34,943 nucleotides of DNA, taken from NCBI GenBank assembly GCA_003242085.1, contig QBML01000044.1, forward strand, positions 1-34,943. The letters run 5' to 3'. Numbering within the stretch: position 1 is the first letter of the stretch; each line of letters begins with the position of its first letter. Origin of the DNA: Pseudanabaena frigida (GTDB lineage Bacteria > Cyanobacteriota > Cyanobacteriia > Pseudanabaenales > Pseudanabaenaceae). The notes beneath the pieces were generated by a model, which was not told the DNA's origin, ran no database searches, and worked only from the letters and a program-made list of their open reading frames with translations. Below, one piece after another: positions 2,403-34,306 of the stretch. The position numbers were made by a program, and so were the translations under genes.

Positions 2403-3092
2403 TTACGATTCAAATCTAAACCACTCCACCTTGAGCTGATTGTCTACAGAATGCACCCCTGGAGCACGCCAAGCAACCCGCTCGGCTTCATCTAGCTCGG
2501 CATAGTTGCGAACCTTGCCATGAAGCGTCACATTGTTCCCAGTGGTTTCAACACGGATCTTGTTCGCATCTAACAATGCATTACGTTTGAAGGCATCTCT
2601 AATATCACTGGTAATGTCGGTCGCTTTCAACCTAGACTTGACCGCGATCAGATTAGACACTCCTTTAACACCTGAAAGGTTATACAGGAAGTTTTCAGCA
2701 GAACTCTTTAGGTATTGCCACTCGACCTCGCCTTCAAGGGTGATCCAAGCATCGCTAACCGTTACCTTGATAGTTCCTCTAGGAATTGAGGTGAACCAGT
2801 CGATATGGTGCGCGGCAGCCGTAGCGATGTCTCCGTCTGTGTGAAGCGAAGAATTCGGTAACTTGATTACGATGTCATCGGCGATCGCCTTTACGCCAGA
2901 AACTCGTCTAGTCGCTTGCACGGCTTGCCATTTCTCGTTAGAGCTAGTTGCATAGCCATTGAGTGTCACTGTTCCATCTTTGACTAAAACACCGATGTCT
3001 GTGACCTTTATACTCGGCTCATATTGGAGTTCAGCAAGCACATCAGTCTTGAGATCTGTGTCAGTTTTTTGGACAGATAGAAGTGTAGTCAT
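2403..3092 (-). CDS. Triple-BON-domain stress protein, copy 1 (OsmY-like)
   Basis: A 229-residue protein made of three consecutive BON repeats (roughly residues 10-77, 83-150 and 155-225). Each has the D-G-x-V-T-L-x-G or equivalent strand and a Gly-Val-turn ('VSGVKAIAD', 'LSGVKGVSN', 'APGVHSVDN'). BON domains bind phospholipid or envelope surfaces; OsmY is the osmotically induced periplasmic example. No signal peptide is visible, so the location is uncertain. A close paralogue lies at 4205-4891, and the two flank a DUF5335/coiled-coil pair. The recurrent upstream element is at 3167-3216, 75 bases ahead of the ATG, and a strong hairpin follows the stop. Good evidence for the domain, none for a specific partner. 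Confidence 0.9.
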   Translation of the reverse strand: MTTLLSVQKTDTDLKTDVLAELQYEPSIKVTDIGVLVKDGTVTLNGYATSSNEKWQAVQATRRVSGVKAIADDIVIKLPNSSLHTDGDIATAAAHHIDWFTSIPRGTIKVTVSDAWITLEGEVEWQYLKSSAENFLYNLSGVKGVSNLIAVKSRLKATDITSDIRDAFKRNALLDANKIRVETTGNNVTLHGKVRNYAELDEAERVAWRAPGVHSVDNQLKVEWFRFES

Positions 3093-3166: not shown

Positions 3167-3216
3167 AGTAGCGTATACATCGAATACATTGATTGAAATA
3201 ACGAATAAATCTTCAT
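3167..3216 (-). promoter_or_regulatory. Recurrent upstream element, site I (BON1)
   Basis: On the minus strand it reads GAAGATTTAT, then CAATCAATGTATTCG, then ATGTATACGC. It matches the other copies of the element after allowing one single-base indel in the spacer. It begins 75 bases upstream of the ATG of BON gene 1. The role as promoter or operator is inferred from recurrence and position. Confidence 0.55.
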
Positions 3217-3649: not shown

Positions 3650-4069
3650 CTATGTGTTTTTTGCCGCAGATTCAGCATCTAGGCGGGCAGCGATCGCTGT
3701 CAAAGTTGCTTCTTCAGCTTCTTCTATTGTTGCAATAGACAAAGCGATCGCAGTAGCAGCATAGTCTTCAGCTTTTTCAGCCCGATGTTCGAGTTTTTTC
3801 ACTTTCCGACTTGACTTCCATTCTTCGACATCCGACTTCAACTCAGACTCCTTTTCCTCAAATTGAGTTTTGAGCTTGGCGCGGTATTCGTCGAATTCCT
3901 GTTTTTTGGAGTTGAGTGTTGCTTTCGCCTCGTCAAGCTTAGATTGAATCTCATCTTGAGTTTTTTTCGGCACAGATTGAAGGCTGTCTCTTAGCGATTT
4001 CACGCGCTCTTCAACCGCTTCCAAATTGTCATGCAGCTTTTTAGTGAAGTTGTCAACTGTAGTACTCAT
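3650..4069 (-). CDS. Charged coiled-coil protein, intact copy
   Basis: A 139-residue, very polar protein rich in Lys, Glu and Ala. Residues about 10-105 form a continuous predicted coiled coil with heptad-like spacing, followed by an Ala-rich helix ending in 'EEATLTAIAARLDAES'. I know no function; similar proteins are annotated as hypothetical. The ATG at 4069 has AAGGA 7 bases upstream; an earlier ATG at 4090 lies directly before that ribosome site and is unlikely to be used. Downstream is the DUF5335 gene. A broken second copy of this gene lies at 12958-13145, also next to a DUF5335 gene, so the pair forms a module. Confidence 0.75.
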   Translation of the reverse strand: MSTTVDNFTKKLHDNLEAVEERVKSLRDSLQSVPKKTQDEIQSKLDEAKATLNSKKQEFDEYRAKLKTQFEEKESELKSDVEEWKSSRKVKKLEHRAEKAEDYAATAIALSIATIEEAEEATLTAIAARLDAESAAKNT

Positions 4070-4151
4070 AGTCATTTCCTTATTGATCATTAATCGAGTC
4101 TTTCTAAATTGGGAAATTGCTTAACTAGAATTGATAAAGCATCTTTCTGTT

Positions 4152-4206
4152 AGAGTATTGAATGAGATAAATGGTGCGAAGCACTATTTATCTCATTCAA
4201 TGCTCT
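4152..4206 (-). repeat. Long hairpin at the 3' end of BON gene 2
   Basis: Two 26-base arms (4152-4177 and 4181-4206) complementary except for two positions, with a GAA loop. The right arm overlaps the stop codon of BON gene 2. The GTGC-GAA-GCAC tip recurs in other palindromes of the window. Likely a REP-like element or a 3' processing hairpin; there is no U-run. Confidence 0.7.
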
Positions 4207-4891
4207 AAGTGTTGTAACCAAACCACTGCACGGATAGCTGATTATCTACTGTTAGTACACCCGAGGCAGCCCAAACTGCTCGTTCTGCTTCTTCCAACTC
4301 GGCATAGTTGCGAACCTTGCCCTTTAGTGTCACCTTGCTGCCAGCAACATCGATTTGAATCTTATTGGCATCAAGCATGGCACTGCGCTTGAATGCTGCT
4401 TTAATATCCGTAGCAACTTCTGTTACCGATAATCTAGGTTTGATCGAGATCTCATTAGTCACTCCTTTAACACCTGACAAATGATGCAGGAAATGTCCTG
4501 CGGCAGTCTTTAGATATTGCCAATCCACCTCGCCATCGAGAGTAATCCAACCATTCCGAACTGTTACTTTTACAGACCCACGAGGAATAGTCGTGAACCA
4601 GTCAATGTGATGGATTGCGGCAGCAGCAATGTCTGAGTCAGTATTGATAAATGATTCGGAAAGCTTGATTTCAATGTCATCAGCGATCGCTTTTACGCCA
4701 ACAACTCGTTTAGTTGCCCGAACAGCCTCCCATTTCTCAGCAGCGCTAGTAGCGTAGCCATTGAGTGTCACGGTTCCATTTTTTACCAAGACACCAATAT
4801 CGGTAACCTTTACACTCGGCTCATATTTGAGTTCAGAAAGCACATCAGTTTTGATTTCAGTATCAGTCTTTTCTGCAATAAGAGTTGGCAT
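4205..4891 (-). CDS. Triple-BON-domain stress protein, copy 2
   Basis: A 228-residue paralogue of the protein at 2403-3092, with the same three BON repeats and long blocks of identity (for example 'VTDIGVLVK', 'HHIDWFT', 'KVRNYAEL'). Differences cluster between the repeats and at the domain 2/3 junction. No signal peptide is seen. The two copies enclose the coiled-coil and DUF5335 genes, so a local duplication is the simplest explanation. The recurrent upstream element is present at 4964-5011, 73 bases from the ATG, almost the same distance as in copy 1, so both promoter and gene were copied or kept. Presumed envelope/osmotic stress role; no direct evidence. Confidence 0.9.
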   Translation of the reverse strand: MPTLIAEKTDTEIKTDVLSELKYEPSVKVTDIGVLVKNGTVTLNGYATSAAEKWEAVRATKRVVGVKAIADDIEIKLSESFINTDSDIAAAAIHHIDWFTTIPRGSVKVTVRNGWITLDGEVDWQYLKTAAGHFLHHLSGVKGVTNEISIKPRLSVTEVATDIKAAFKRSAMLDANKIQIDVAGSKVTLKGKVRNYAELEEAERAVWAASGVLTVDNQLSVQWFGYNT

Positions 4892-4963: not shown

Positions 4964-5011
4964 GTACCGTATAAACTGAATGGATTGTACGCAATAGATT
5001 CAATTCTTTAC
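4964..5011 (-). promoter_or_regulatory. Recurrent upstream element, site H (BON2)
   Basis: Minus strand: GTAAAG, 18 bases, ACAATCCATTCAGTTTATAC. Aligns without gaps to sites A-G over 46 columns and lies 73 bases before the BON2 ATG. Function inferred. Confidence 0.6.
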
Positions 5012-8190: not shown

Positions 8191-8318
8191 AAAAATAATT
8201 AAGGCTAGTTTTTTGGTTTATTGAAGCAAAGTTGAAAATGTTTTTATGGATTGATTCCGTCTGCATTACAAGATCTGGTAGATGAAATCCAAACGTTCAT
8301 TAAAAGTAAAGTAGCTCT

Positions 8319-8397
8319 AAAGATGGCAGGATTATAGGTCTAGGATAGTCGGCACTATGCACTCTCCTAGACCCATGATCGCTACCAAAAGCATACT
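8319..8397 (+). repeat. Hairpin repeat 'GATGGCAGGA', copy 1
   Basis: Begins AAAGATGGCAGGATTATA and ends GATCGCTACCAAAAG. It contains a perfect 9-bp stem GGTCTAGGA (8337-8345) / TCCTAGACC (8365-8373). Similar to copies at 8820-8892, 12589-12676 and, inverted, 9968-10041. Lies in the gap between the pterin dehydratase and CsbD genes. Confidence 0.65.
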
Positions 8398-8702: not shown

Positions 8703-8748
8703 GTTTTATTTCTTGAATGAATTGATTGAATATGACATAAAACTTAAC
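8703..8748 (-). promoter_or_regulatory. Recurrent upstream element, site A (CsbD)
   Basis: Minus strand: GTTAAGTTTT, 8 bases, TTCAATCAATTCATTCAAG, AAATAAAAC. Aligns without gaps to the other sites and starts 90 bases before the CsbD ATG. Best representative of subclass 1. Function inferred from recurrence. Confidence 0.65.
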
Positions 8749-8800: not shown

Positions 8801-8819
8801 CTTTTACACTCCATAAATT

Positions 8820-8892
8820 AAAGATGGCAGGACTTTAGAGTTAGGATTGGCGTTATGAAGCGCTGCCCATTCTAGCTTCTTGATCGCTACCG
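8820..8892 (+). repeat. Hairpin repeat 'GATGGCAGGA', copy 2
   Basis: Starts AAAGATGGCAGGACTTTAG and ends TTGATCGCTACCGAA, matching copy 1 at both ends. The middle can fold as TTAGGATTGG against CCCATTCTAG with G-U pairs. Confidence 0.65.
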
Positions 8893-8980
8893 AATGATTT
8901 AAGATTGATATGTGTGAGATTAATTGAAACTTTAGTCGCTGCACATATTCAGAATAAACGGTTGCAAAACAGAAAAATAG

Positions 8981-10792: not shown

Positions 10793-10838
10793 GTCTGATT
10801 TCCTGTATGAATTGATTAAACTAGATACAAAACTTTAC
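10793..10838 (-). promoter_or_regulatory. Recurrent upstream element, site B (YggT)
   Basis: Minus strand: GTAAAGTTTT, 9 bases, TTAATCAATTCATACAGG, AAATCAGAC. Starts 71 bases before the YggT ATG and ends directly at the stop codon of the next gene upstream, so it is confined to the intergenic space. Confidence 0.65.
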
Positions 10839-12191: not shown

Positions 12192-12545
12192 TTAGCGCGG
12201 TTCGAGTTTAACTAGTGTTTTTCTACCTGCTGCGCTAGCAATACACATTGCGATAATTTCTCCATTTGAGTTCTGCCCTGTAGAGACTTCAGTGGGTGAT
12301 TCAATTGTGTGACCATAGGTCATTTGCTCCTTGCCCACTTCGATTTGCAAATTATCCCCTTTTCCAGGGCGATCGTAAATCATTGCTAGTAGAGGAGCGT
12401 TCTTAATTAATTCTCGATCTCCAAGTTCTGGATCCATATTTTCAATCGAAATATGTCTTCCAAGATTACCAATTGAGAAACGATCGAAGAATTCACCCCA
12501 TTTTTCAACTGGTACAGATACGTTCAAGTCAATTTTATTCATCAT
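12192..12545 (-). CDS. DUF5335 family protein, copy 2
   Basis: A 117-residue paralogue of the protein at 3233-3604. The same landmarks are present: 'VPVEKWGEFFDRFS', 'MDPELGDRELIKNAPLLA' and 'YDRPGKGDNLQIEVGKEQM'. No membrane segment or signal peptide. The ATG at 12545 follows AGGAA by 9 bases; a second ATG is adjacent. Upstream are an NblA-like gene and then the ruins of a coiled-coil gene, so the order coiled coil then DUF5335 seen at 3.2-4.1 kb is repeated here with an insertion. Function unknown. Confidence 0.78.
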   Translation of the reverse strand: MMNKIDLNVSVPVEKWGEFFDRFSIGNLGRHISIENMDPELGDRELIKNAPLLAMIYDRPGKGDNLQIEVGKEQMTYGHTIESPTEVSTGQNSNGEIIAMCIASAAGRKTLVKLEPR

Positions 12546-12588: not shown

Positions 12589-12676
12589 TAAAATGGTGGC
12601 GTTAAGGATAGCGAGATTTTAGAGCTAGGATTGGAGGCTTGTAGAGCTGCCTATCCTAGCTTCTTGTGCACTACCC
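12589..12676 (+). repeat. Hairpin repeat 'GATGGCAGGA', copy 3
   Basis: Starts CTAAAATGGTGGCG and contains a perfect 9-bp stem AGCTAGGAT (12623-12631) / ATCCTAGCT (12653-12661). The stem differs from copy 1 on both sides while keeping pairing. Fills the space between DUF5335 copy 2 and the NblA-like gene. Confidence 0.6.
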
Positions 12677-12723
12677 AAAAAATAAATATAGAAACAGTTG
12701 GTAATTAAGAAAGAACAAGTAAG

Positions 12724-12897
12724 CTATCTTTCCATAAAACCATCTTGCTTAATAAGCATGGTAAACATAGTTTGCTGTCCTAAGTAAAGTAGATGTAAAT
12801 CAATAAGCAATTGTTTAGCGTTATTGATGTCGATATTTTCTACCTGTTGACAAAACAAGGCGTGGGTAAATTGTTTTTCAAAATCTAAATCATTCAT
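12724..12897 (-). CDS. NblA-like small protein
   Basis: A 57-residue protein, 'MNDLDFEKQFTHALFCQQV' at the start, then 'NNAKQLLIDLHLLYLG' and 'MFTMLIKQDGF' at the end. The layout (aromatic/Glu-Gln-Phe start, an Ala-x-x-Leu-Leu-x-x-Leu helix, then Met-(Y/F)-x-x-(L/F)-(L/I)-Lys) matches NblA, the adaptor that directs phycobilisomes to Clp protease during nutrient or light stress. The usual C-terminal Trp-Gly is replaced by Gly-Phe, so it is a divergent member or a look-alike. The ATG is preceded by AGGA at about 9 bases. It lies inside the second coiled-coil/DUF5335 module. Confidence 0.5.
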   Translation of the reverse strand: MNDLDFEKQFTHALFCQQVENIDINNAKQLLIDLHLLYLGQQTMFTMLIKQDGFMER

Positions 12898-12957: not shown

Positions 12958-13145
12958 CTAGTGTGGATTATCAACGTTAAAAAGCCAAGATTTACGAGTA
13001 GATTCTGCACTGAGTCTGCTGCAAATTGCTGTTAAGGTTACTTCTTCCATCTTTAATACTCTTCTTGAAAGATTTTAAGCTATCCTCAACAACTTCTAGA
13101 TAATTTAGAATTTGTTGAGTGAAGTTATACAACTGTCGTATTCAT
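12958..13145 (-). pseudogene. Decayed paralogue of the coiled-coil gene at 3650-4069
   Basis: The minus strand from the ATG at 13145 reads Met-Asn-Thr-Thr-Val, matching the intact start Met-Ser-Thr-Thr-Val. After a small indel it continues 'FTQQILNYLEVVEDSLKSF', matching 'FTKKLHDNLEAVEERVKSL'. After a second frame change it reads 'EEVTLTAICSRLSAES', matching 'EEATLTAIAARLDAES' near the intact C-terminus, and ends in a foreign tail. The middle two thirds of the gene are missing. So this is a wreck with two frameshifts and a large internal deletion. It still has the recurrent upstream element 70 bases before its ATG. The last frame alone could yield a 30-residue peptide from an internal ATG at 13050. 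Confidence 0.75.
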
Positions 13146-13214
13146 TATGCTTACTTTTAATTCCGTTGAGTTTCTAAGATCAGTTTGGCATCACACTGTT
13201 TTATATAGCGTTTA

Positions 13215-13263
13215 AACATTGTATAAATTGGATGGATTGTCTTAGAACTACATAAGTCCTTAC
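13215..13263 (-). promoter_or_regulatory. Recurrent upstream element, site G (decayed coiled-coil gene)
   Basis: Minus strand: GTAAGGACTTAT, 11 bases, ACAATCCATCCAATTTATAC. Aligns without gaps to site F (19151-19200), including flanking bases, though the genes are unrelated. It lies 70 bases before the pseudogene's original ATG. Confidence 0.65.
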
Positions 13264-13348
13264 AATTTATGTGGAAAGAGGATATTCGTTTTGAAATTAG
13301 ATAGCGATCTAGGGAAATGAATATATAGCTGCCACCAAGTGTATTAGT

Positions 13349-13397
13349 ACAACCCAAGAAGAGAATGGCGCTAAGCGCCATTCTCTTCTTGGGTTGT
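13349..13397. repeat. 24-bp perfect REP-like palindrome
   Basis: Arms 13349-13372 and 13374-13397 beginning ACAACCCAAGAAGAG, with a GCGC-rich tip. The outer CCCAAGAAG motif is shared with palindromes at 12005, 14182 and 18032. It lies 44 bases beyond the 3' end of the DUF1345 gene. Confidence 0.75.
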
Positions 13398-13440
13398 ATT
13401 TTGTCCTAACGCGAGTGGCTACAGCTATAAATAGATATCG

Positions 13441-14142
13441 CTACTGAATTAGTCCAGCAATAATATTTATACTCATCGCAACAATAGCAGTATTGAAGAA
13501 AAAGGACAGAATACTATGGAACAAAGATAATCGCCTTAGCGATCGCGAGGTAATCTGCACATCGGAAACTTGGCTAGTCATACCAATTACAAATGAGAAA
13601 TACAAGAAATCCCAATAGTCTGGCTCGATGTCTTCAGGGAAATCCAGTCCACCCGCTTTGAGATCGCTTTGAGTTTGATGATCTTGGTAATATTCGTGAG
13701 CATAATGCATCGCAAAAATTGTGTGAACGAGTAACCACGAACCAACAATTGTGACCACAGCGAGAATTACATGGGAAATTACAATATTTACCTCTTGTCC
13801 TTTTGCTTCTCGCAAGATAAAGGCGATCGCTAATGTACTGGCACAAGCTGCTGCTGTAATCAGACTCAAGATTACCAAACGTCCTTCATCTTCACTTTGA
13901 GCATTGTGGCGCATTGTCTTTGGCTTTGCTTGCAACATTAACGACCAAGTTGCTACTAAAAAGCTAATCATTCCCGTATTCCATATACAGAGAATACGGG
14001 TAGACAAGCTAAACCAAGATGGTAGTAAAACCGATACGATCGAAGCAAATAGTATCGATAGAATTAAGCGCGATCGCACTCTCCATCGATGCGAAAGTTT
14101 GCCTTTGACCAAATTTTGAGTAGATTTTTGAGGTAAGTTCAT
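13441..14142 (-). CDS. DUF1345 family membrane protein
   Basis: A 233-residue protein with five predicted helices (about 25-45, 52-70, 90-110, 121-145 and 208-230). The family's diagnostic segments are clear: 'VHTIFAMHYAHEYY', 'GLDFPEDIEPDYWDFLYFS' and 'MTSQVSDVQI'. Function of the family is unknown; the acidic/aromatic loop is reminiscent of an ion-conducting pore region, but that is only an impression. The gene stands alone between palindromes that also bracket the efflux operon, so it is probably transcribed separately. Confidence 0.85.
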   Translation of the reverse strand: MNLPQKSTQNLVKGKLSHRWRVRSRLILSILFASIVSVLLPSWFSLSTRILCIWNTGMISFLVATWSLMLQAKPKTMRHNAQSEDEGRLVILSLITAAACASTLAIAFILREAKGQEVNIVISHVILAVVTIVGSWLLVHTIFAMHYAHEYYQDHQTQSDLKAGGLDFPEDIEPDYWDFLYFSFVIGMTSQVSDVQITSRSLRRLSLFHSILSFFFNTAIVAMSINIIAGLIQ

Positions 14143-14181
14143 AATTGAAGGTTTGCTTTAAAAATTAAAACGTACTAGAAC

Positions 14182-14238
14182 CTAAACCCAGAAGATGAGT
14201 TGCGGCGCGAAGCGCCGCAACTCATCTTCTGGGTTTAG
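14182..14238. repeat. 27-bp perfect REP-like palindrome
   Basis: Arms 14182-14208 and 14212-14238, GAA loop, arm starting CTAAACCCAGAAGATGAG. It lies 8 bases after the stop of the efflux transporter gene (minus strand) and 40 bases upstream of DUF1345. No U-tract. A near-identical arm occurs at 18056-18075, so the two bracket the efflux operon. Confidence 0.8.
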
Positions 14239-14245
14239 ATTTGCC

Positions 14246-19150: not shown

Positions 19151-19200
19151 GAGTAATGTATAAATTGAATGACTTGTATGAAAACACGATAAATCTTTAC
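19151..19200 (-). promoter_or_regulatory. Recurrent upstream element, site F (diguanylate cyclase)
   Basis: Minus strand: GTAAAGATTTAT, 11 bases, ACAAGTCATTCAATTTATAC. Matches site G over some 60 aligned bases with about 43 identities, and site A in the shared core. It is 103 bases before the ATG. Confidence 0.65.
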
Positions 19201-21685: not shown

Positions 21686-21731
21686 GCTTGATTTTGCGGA
21701 TGAGTTGATTGAATACGCTACAAAATTTAAC
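21686..21731 (-). promoter_or_regulatory. Recurrent upstream element, site C (DUF6544 cluster)
   Basis: Minus strand: GTTAAATTTTGTA, 5 bases, ATTCAATCAACTCATCC, then AAAATCAAGC. It starts 37 bases before the DUF6544 ATG. The orphan antitoxin gene lies on the other side (plus strand, 21860), so control in that direction is not excluded. Confidence 0.6.
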
Positions 21732-29676: not shown

Positions 29677-29722
29677 GATTGATCTAAGGTGCGAATTGGT
29701 TGAGTACAGTACAAAACTTATC
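29677..29722 (-). promoter_or_regulatory. Recurrent upstream element, site D (DUF6335)
   Basis: Minus strand: GATAAGTTTTGTACTGTA, CTCAACCAATTCGCACC. Ungapped match to sites A-C, weaker at the 3' end. It starts 66 bases before the DUF6335 ATG; the phosphoglycerate mutase gene begins 67 bases away on the other strand. Confidence 0.55.
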
Positions 29723-34260: not shown

Positions 34261-34306
34261 GTTCTATTTCTTGGATGAGTTGGTTGATTATGAAATAAAT
34301 TGTAAT
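34261..34306 (-). promoter_or_regulatory. Recurrent upstream element, site E (FAD-Rieske)
   Basis: Minus strand: ATTACAATTTATTTCAT, AATCAACCAACTCATCC, AAGAAATAGAAC. Aligns without gaps with site A, particularly at the 3' half. Starts 113 bases before the ATG. The IS1-family transposase frame ends 34 bases further upstream, so the element survived next to an insertion. Confidence 0.6.

Follow-up and report, generated by a model that had tools for sequence, protein, structure and literature searches.

The closest described relatives of the locus reported here come from a mycobacterium and from a cyanobacterium. In Mycobacterium leprae, dead genes are preceded by promoter-like sequences that can be aligned with those of their live homologues, and the pseudogenes that are transcribed form operon-like runs containing few terminators (PMC2753549). 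In Nostoc punctiforme, the J-box of SigJ is a short extended -10 sequence, GGGaAtacT (PMC6495340), and an alkane-overproducing strain has CsbD, BON and PRC-barrel proteins raised together, with a common regulator, SigB2, suggested for the CsbD genes (PMC7660261).

The window analysed here is the entire contig C38, 34,943 bases, of the 5.4-Mb genome of Pseudanabaena frigida. An upstream element, site G, stands in it ahead of the remains of a coiled-coil gene, and the order along the minus strand is DUF1345, palindromic repeat, site G, remnant, NblA-like gene, hairpin repeat, DUF5335. The features of this locus, followed by those of a second run that carries the remnant's intact paralogue, are these:

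13441-14142, minus strand: DUF1345 gene, the syntenic marker that precedes the element here and in lw0831, G020 and ULC068bin1
13348-13398, no strand assigned: perfect palindrome with 25-nt arms between DUF1345 and site G, from a repeat family common in the genus
13220-13263, minus strand: site G, the 44-nt core of the upstream element, sub-type II (from profile scores and identity between orthologues)
13190-13219, minus strand: the 30 nt directly downstream of the site G core, less well conserved (from ungapped identity)
12958-13145, minus strand: coiled-coil gene remnant, its ends kept, its middle lost and its frame broken (from matches to the intact paralogue)
12724-12897, minus strand: NblA-like gene, 57 aa, intact (Pfam PF04485)
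12602-12692, no strand assigned: repeat with a hairpin between the NblA-like gene and DUF5335, with no T-run after it (from repeat search and folding)
12192-12545, minus strand: DUF5335 gene (copy b), 117 aa, intact (Pfam PF17269, E = 1.4e-14)
4205-4891, minus strand: BON-domain gene, heading the run BON - coiled-coil - DUF5335a
3650-4090, minus strand: intact coiled-coil paralogue of the remnant, 146 aa
3233-3616, minus strand: DUF5335 copy a, following the intact coiled-coil paralogue

A search of Rfam over the window gave 0 matches at gathering score. Of the 22 other same-genus genomes searched, at least 18 contain relatives of the palindrome at 13348-13398; it and 14179-14241 are both long near-perfect palindromes.

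The intact element that the earlier note had placed 70 bases upstream of a dead gene is indeed present. Site G lies 74 nt from the old ATG (13145) and scores 16.9 bits in the window under model R1 (E = 2.1e-4, the next window match having E = 0.12), with a genome-wide E of 0.036. R1 was built from the eight window sites other than site G, among nine obtained by iterating a window profile of six seed sites; since site G was itself one of the seeds used in collecting those eight, the hold-out is not fully independent. Under R1, site G scores lowest of the nine window sites, and it is a member of the second sub-type. An R1 scan at E<=10 with filters off found no second element between 12545 and 13215.

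The remnant (13145-12958, minus strand) matches the intact coiled-coil gene at 3650-4090 in two pieces, one per end, in a search of the masked window. Among the matches listed, the N-terminal piece is 65.5% identical over 116 nt (E = 2e-6) and the C-terminal piece 66% identical over 86 nt (E = 0.005), the latter also matching as protein with 13 of 20 residues identical (E = 1.7e-4). Judged from the match ends, about 250 nt net are absent between the two pieces; a one-base frameshift lies near the start, and the C-terminal piece is in a different frame. The two-piece match, the frame breaks and the loss between them agree with the earlier description of two frameshifts and an internal deletion. 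Homology is recognisable to about 12988, while 12958 is the end of that frame. This structure rests on local matches, global alignments of the remnant being poor for the C-terminal part, and a whole-genome protein search with the intact gene at E<=1 returned the intact copy and one match at E = 0.34, with the remnant absent.

Five loci with a type II element in this place, a small number, were defined by a DNA search of relatives, alignment and comparison of named loci. (A search of genome contigs with DUF1345 gave 25 loci, and one with DUF5335 found no relative; Pseudanabaena biceps O153, in which a type I element and YGGT come after DUF1345, is excluded from the orthologues of site G.) Two of the five retain an open coiled-coil gene, arranged as element - coiled-coil - DUF5335 in G020 and as element - coiled-coil - YGGT - fatty-acid hydroxylase in ULC068bin1. 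The gene is open over 138 codons in both, with a GTG start in ULC068bin1, and dN/dS between them is 0.28. The coiled-coil gene is dead in the other three: the window has element - remnant (N and C ends) - NblA-like - DUF5335, lw0831 has element - remnant (N end, with a stop inside) - NblA-like, and G009 has element - remnant (middle, residues 68-109, E = 1.4e-4) with DUF5335 directly behind this short remnant. The different pieces left in the three dead loci suggest that the gene was lost, or at least eroded, independently in each. The G009 contig begins 175 nt before the element match and its DUF1345 is on another contig, so that orthology there is judged from the element together with the coiled-coil remnant and DUF5335. 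The lw0831 contig stops just past the NblA-like gene, and the sole DUF5335 match in lw0831, 67% identical, is elsewhere.

The element is retained in all three of the dead loci found, at the strength of the live-gene copies. Under a sub-type II model, the dead-gene loci score 32.5 bits (window), 35.6 (G009) and 47.5 (lw0831), and the live-gene loci 37.0 (G020) and 29.8 (ULC068bin1), within a leave-one-out range of 28.4-48.7 bits for the training sites; the best unlisted place in the seven sequences scanned reaches 25.0. The 15 training sites were chosen by eye and include no orthologue of site G; several of them are BON sites orthologous to one another, and the BON gene behind one (L104 4197) has been lost. 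The 44-nt core is 70-82% identical with no indel in all ten pairs of the five loci (75-80% between dead loci, 82% between the live ones, 70-80% in mixed pairs). Over the 30 nt that follow (13190-13219), ungapped identity with the window is 80% for lw0831, 67% for G009, 60% for G020 and 43% for ULC068bin1. The 57-nt upstream flank is 23-26% identical ungapped, with gapped z of 0.5-2.2, in the three of ten pairs where 57 nt are available. Neighbouring genes in these genomes differ by a dS of 0.6-1.7, by a simple count whose high values are near saturation, and the conservation of the element is not separable into the time before and the time after the gene's death.

The earlier note had offered very recent decay as one way to account for an intact element before a dead gene; on such a view, erosion would not yet have reached an element that is now without use. 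Both coiled-coil ends can still be recognised in the window, as this would lead one to expect, but the middle is gone and what remains is only about 66% identical to the paralogue; G009 and lw0831, moreover, are likewise dead, with other pieces left, and the elements there are equally strong. Because synonymous divergence is large, and with three differing wrecks that all keep the element, we consider this explanation improbable. Retention across repeated loss of the coiled-coil gene points to use rather than leftover. Such use could in principle lie in the remnant region itself, as a functional non-coding RNA or a leader peptide transcribed from site G, and the window and lw0831 remnants do still align (67%, z = 7.1). 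Against this, different pieces are kept in the three dead loci, the first remnant frame runs for 6 codons in the window and for 28 in lw0831, no coiled-coil start was found in the G009 remnant, and the leader from element to old start is not clearly conserved (z at most 2.3 in three window pairs, 2.9 for G020 and ULC068bin1). A function of this kind seems very improbable indeed.

From the sequences compared, site G has probably been retained as a promoter element that still drives downstream genes after loss of the coiled-coil gene. It would belong, as promoter element, to a small stress operon that has lost its leading gene, the coiled-coil one, and selection would keep it for the surviving genes downstream: NblA-like and DUF5335 in the window, DUF5335 in G009 and NblA-like in lw0831. 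Transcription would start at site G and would answer to stress, and the transcript would run through NblA-like and DUF5335, with the remnant inside a long 5' leader.

The genes that would benefit are both under purifying selection, with dN/dS of 0.13 for NblA-like (window against lw0831) and, for DUF5335, of 0.07 (window and G009), 0.14 (window and G020) and 0.22 (G009 and G020). The NblA-like gene matches PF04485 with E = 8.2e-6 and 26.6 bits, for a cut-off of 25; Pfam gives this family the name NblA, and its function is to trigger phycobilisome degradation. Another NblA copy in this genome, at G000:C8:18794, is 60% identical to the diverged one at 12724-12897, which is placed among stress genes.

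The gap between NblA-like and DUF5335 is 178 nt, long for an operon, and contains the hairpin repeat, which has 10 matches in the genome, itself included, and folds better than shuffled sequences (z = -2.6). In the window this intergenic repeat occurs at 12602-12692, 8818-8908 and 8318-8351, without an Rfam match; it is not seen in the aligned G020 and G009 sequences. It could halt or slow transcription and so uncouple DUF5335 from site G. A scan between site G and DUF5335 found no terminator-like site, the hairpin repeat not being listed as one, so that a single transcript is permitted and nothing further. Even in G020 a single transcript is not assured, since a long palindrome lies there between element and coiled-coil start.

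The hairpin repeat also lends some weight to an arrangement in which NblA-like and DUF5335 have promoters of their own and site G drives only a short transcript, useless or regulatory, since it separates one gene from the other. Sigma-70-like matches (9 of 12 positions, minus strand) do occur at 12941-12912, just ahead of NblA-like, and at 12645-12616 and 12561-12532, ahead of or at the DUF5335 start, and in G008 and lw0831 (contig C84) DUF5335 has its own element and is preceded by a coiled-coil gene with a separate one. The seven sigma-70-like matches in the region, however, are within chance (5.0 +/- 2.0 expected from shuffles), the gap holds no second element, and independent promoters would leave the retention of site G in three dead-gene loci unexplained. 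We therefore regard this arrangement as unlikely. The proposal that the element is kept for the downstream genes, put forward in the earlier note, is thus favoured by retention across the five loci, with its two halves on unequal footing: for NblA-like it is probable that site G has been kept, and for DUF5335 in this genome somewhat less so, because the hairpin repeat lies before that gene.

Elsewhere in the genus, a DUF5335 match at E<=1e-10 is found in 12 loci of 11 genomes, 15 of the 26 genomes searched having none. In 11 of these 12 loci, the three site G loci with DUF5335 included, the gene is directly behind an element or in an element-headed run. The element is directly ahead in four (G010, G038, G008 and lw0831, the G008 copy having a stop in the match), and seven belong to element-headed runs (both window copies, G020, G009, G016, G004 and G012). 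The twelfth locus, G013, is rearranged. There (L104 4197-4330, 6566-6715) a type II element still stands with a BON start codon but no BON body; what comes next is a gene similar to the window's oxidoreductase, and pieces of BON are found about 2.3 kb off, beyond other genes. G013 may be a second case of an element outliving its gene.

Site G belongs to a family of elements about 60 nt long, a conserved span greater than a core promoter needs, that stands ahead of small, largely stress-type genes. The iterated profile places nine sites in the window, all on the minus strand; besides site G these are:

34263-34306, minus strand: element ahead of the FAD/Rieske oxidoreductase gene
29679-29722, minus strand: element ahead of the DUF6335 gene
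21688-21731, minus strand: element, sub-type I, ahead of the DUF6920 gene
19157-19200, minus strand: element, sub-type II, ahead of the GGDEF gene
10795-10838, minus strand: element, sub-type I, ahead of YGGT
8705-8748, minus strand: element, sub-type I, ahead of CsbD
4968-5011, minus strand: element, sub-type II, ahead of the run BON - coiled-coil - DUF5335a
3172-3215, minus strand: element, sub-type II, ahead of the second BON gene (2403-3092)

For seven of the nine sites the next coding start is 32-107 nt downstream; that of CsbD is about 85 nt downstream if the start MSLENRAK is taken. The type I consensus is aTTACGtTTTGTATCGTAtTCAATCAATTCATTCAngAAATCAAaCA, continuing to CTGTCA, and that of type II, to which site G belongs, is TGTAAAGATTTAT, then ten or eleven bases, then TACAATCCATTCAATTTATAC. 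For these consensuses 68 sites were picked from 83 matches within retrieved loci, of which 63 (49 type I, 14 type II) were kept after passing a similarity cut; sites that carry an inserted unit do not line up with the others in this set. That unit, an extra 9 nt resembling CAATCAATT, is seen inside some type I elements (L093 8252-8311, L100 8392-8454, L100 14229-14282 and L102 2572-2625).

With R1 at E<=0.01, this genome has 18 sites, and at least one site is found in 21 of 22 other same-genus genomes. Sites in this genome are clustered, with nine in C38 and several within the opening 30 kb of C13 and 18 kb of C15, as if one stress-gene region had been broken by repeats. Among 145 genomes sampled evenly across the class, 21 have an R1 match at E<=1e-4, nine in the genus and 12 outside it; two genus genomes and two of the same family in this sample have no match at that threshold. 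Outside the genus, the gene behind the site resembles the window's CsbD in L083 and the window's gene at 6557-6964 in L170 and L172; the other sites have a different gene behind them, or none by a simple rule, and the L082 site was not relocated. Genes downstream of sites in other genomes, the oxidoreductase in G013 included, are named by resemblance.

Two other identities for the element were considered and rejected. Its frames looked peptide-like by eye, as from a coding origin, but it has no three-base periodicity (phase permutation p = 0.21 for the 49 type I sites and 0.81 for the 14 type II sites), and several sites contain in-frame stops. A palindromic operator fares no better: a perfect dyad occurs in one site only (L069) and is not general, with a mean pairing of 3.7 of 7 in type I.

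A promoter that outlives the first gene of its operon is ordinary evolution, an already-known phenomenon of which this locus is a clean example; what began as one intact promoter before one dead gene has become a replicated case, with three different wrecks behind the same kept element. The element family itself, a long and unnamed upstream sequence that small, mostly stress-type genes share in Pseudanabaena and in some other cyanobacteria, may be of greater interest. Tentatively, and with more doubt than conviction, we suggest that it is an undescribed promoter family defining a cyanobacterial general-stress regulon, in which the lasting unit would be the promoter rather than the gene, and the genes behind it die, are exchanged or are added. 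If so, the element would bring newcomers such as the NblA paralogue here, and even phycobilisome breakdown, under general-stress control; should the NblA-like gene be under the element, these strains would couple the turnover of their phycobilisomes to general stress.

By title and abstract in the open-licence text of PubMed Central, no earlier description of the element was found. Like the SigJ regulon, the genes of this family are a cyanobacterial set defined by a common upstream sequence (PMC6495340). The J-box as given there was considered as the same element and rejected: GGGaAtacT is absent, by reading, from the type I and type II consensuses, and the conserved stretch here is of about 60 nt. 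PMC13131328 gave no motif that would argue for or against the element as an OrrA target. The stress genes of the Nostoc punctiforme strain overlap the content of the window in CsbD and BON; the word "motif" is absent from the text of that paper (PMC7660261). The likeness to Mycobacterium leprae is that promoters persist before pseudogenes, as at site G. In the account of M. leprae, however, the promoters are treated as a cause of pseudogene transcription, which is silenced at translation (PMC2753549). The element of site G, by contrast, persists in three lineages where the genes that come after it are alive, an indication of selection for those downstream genes.
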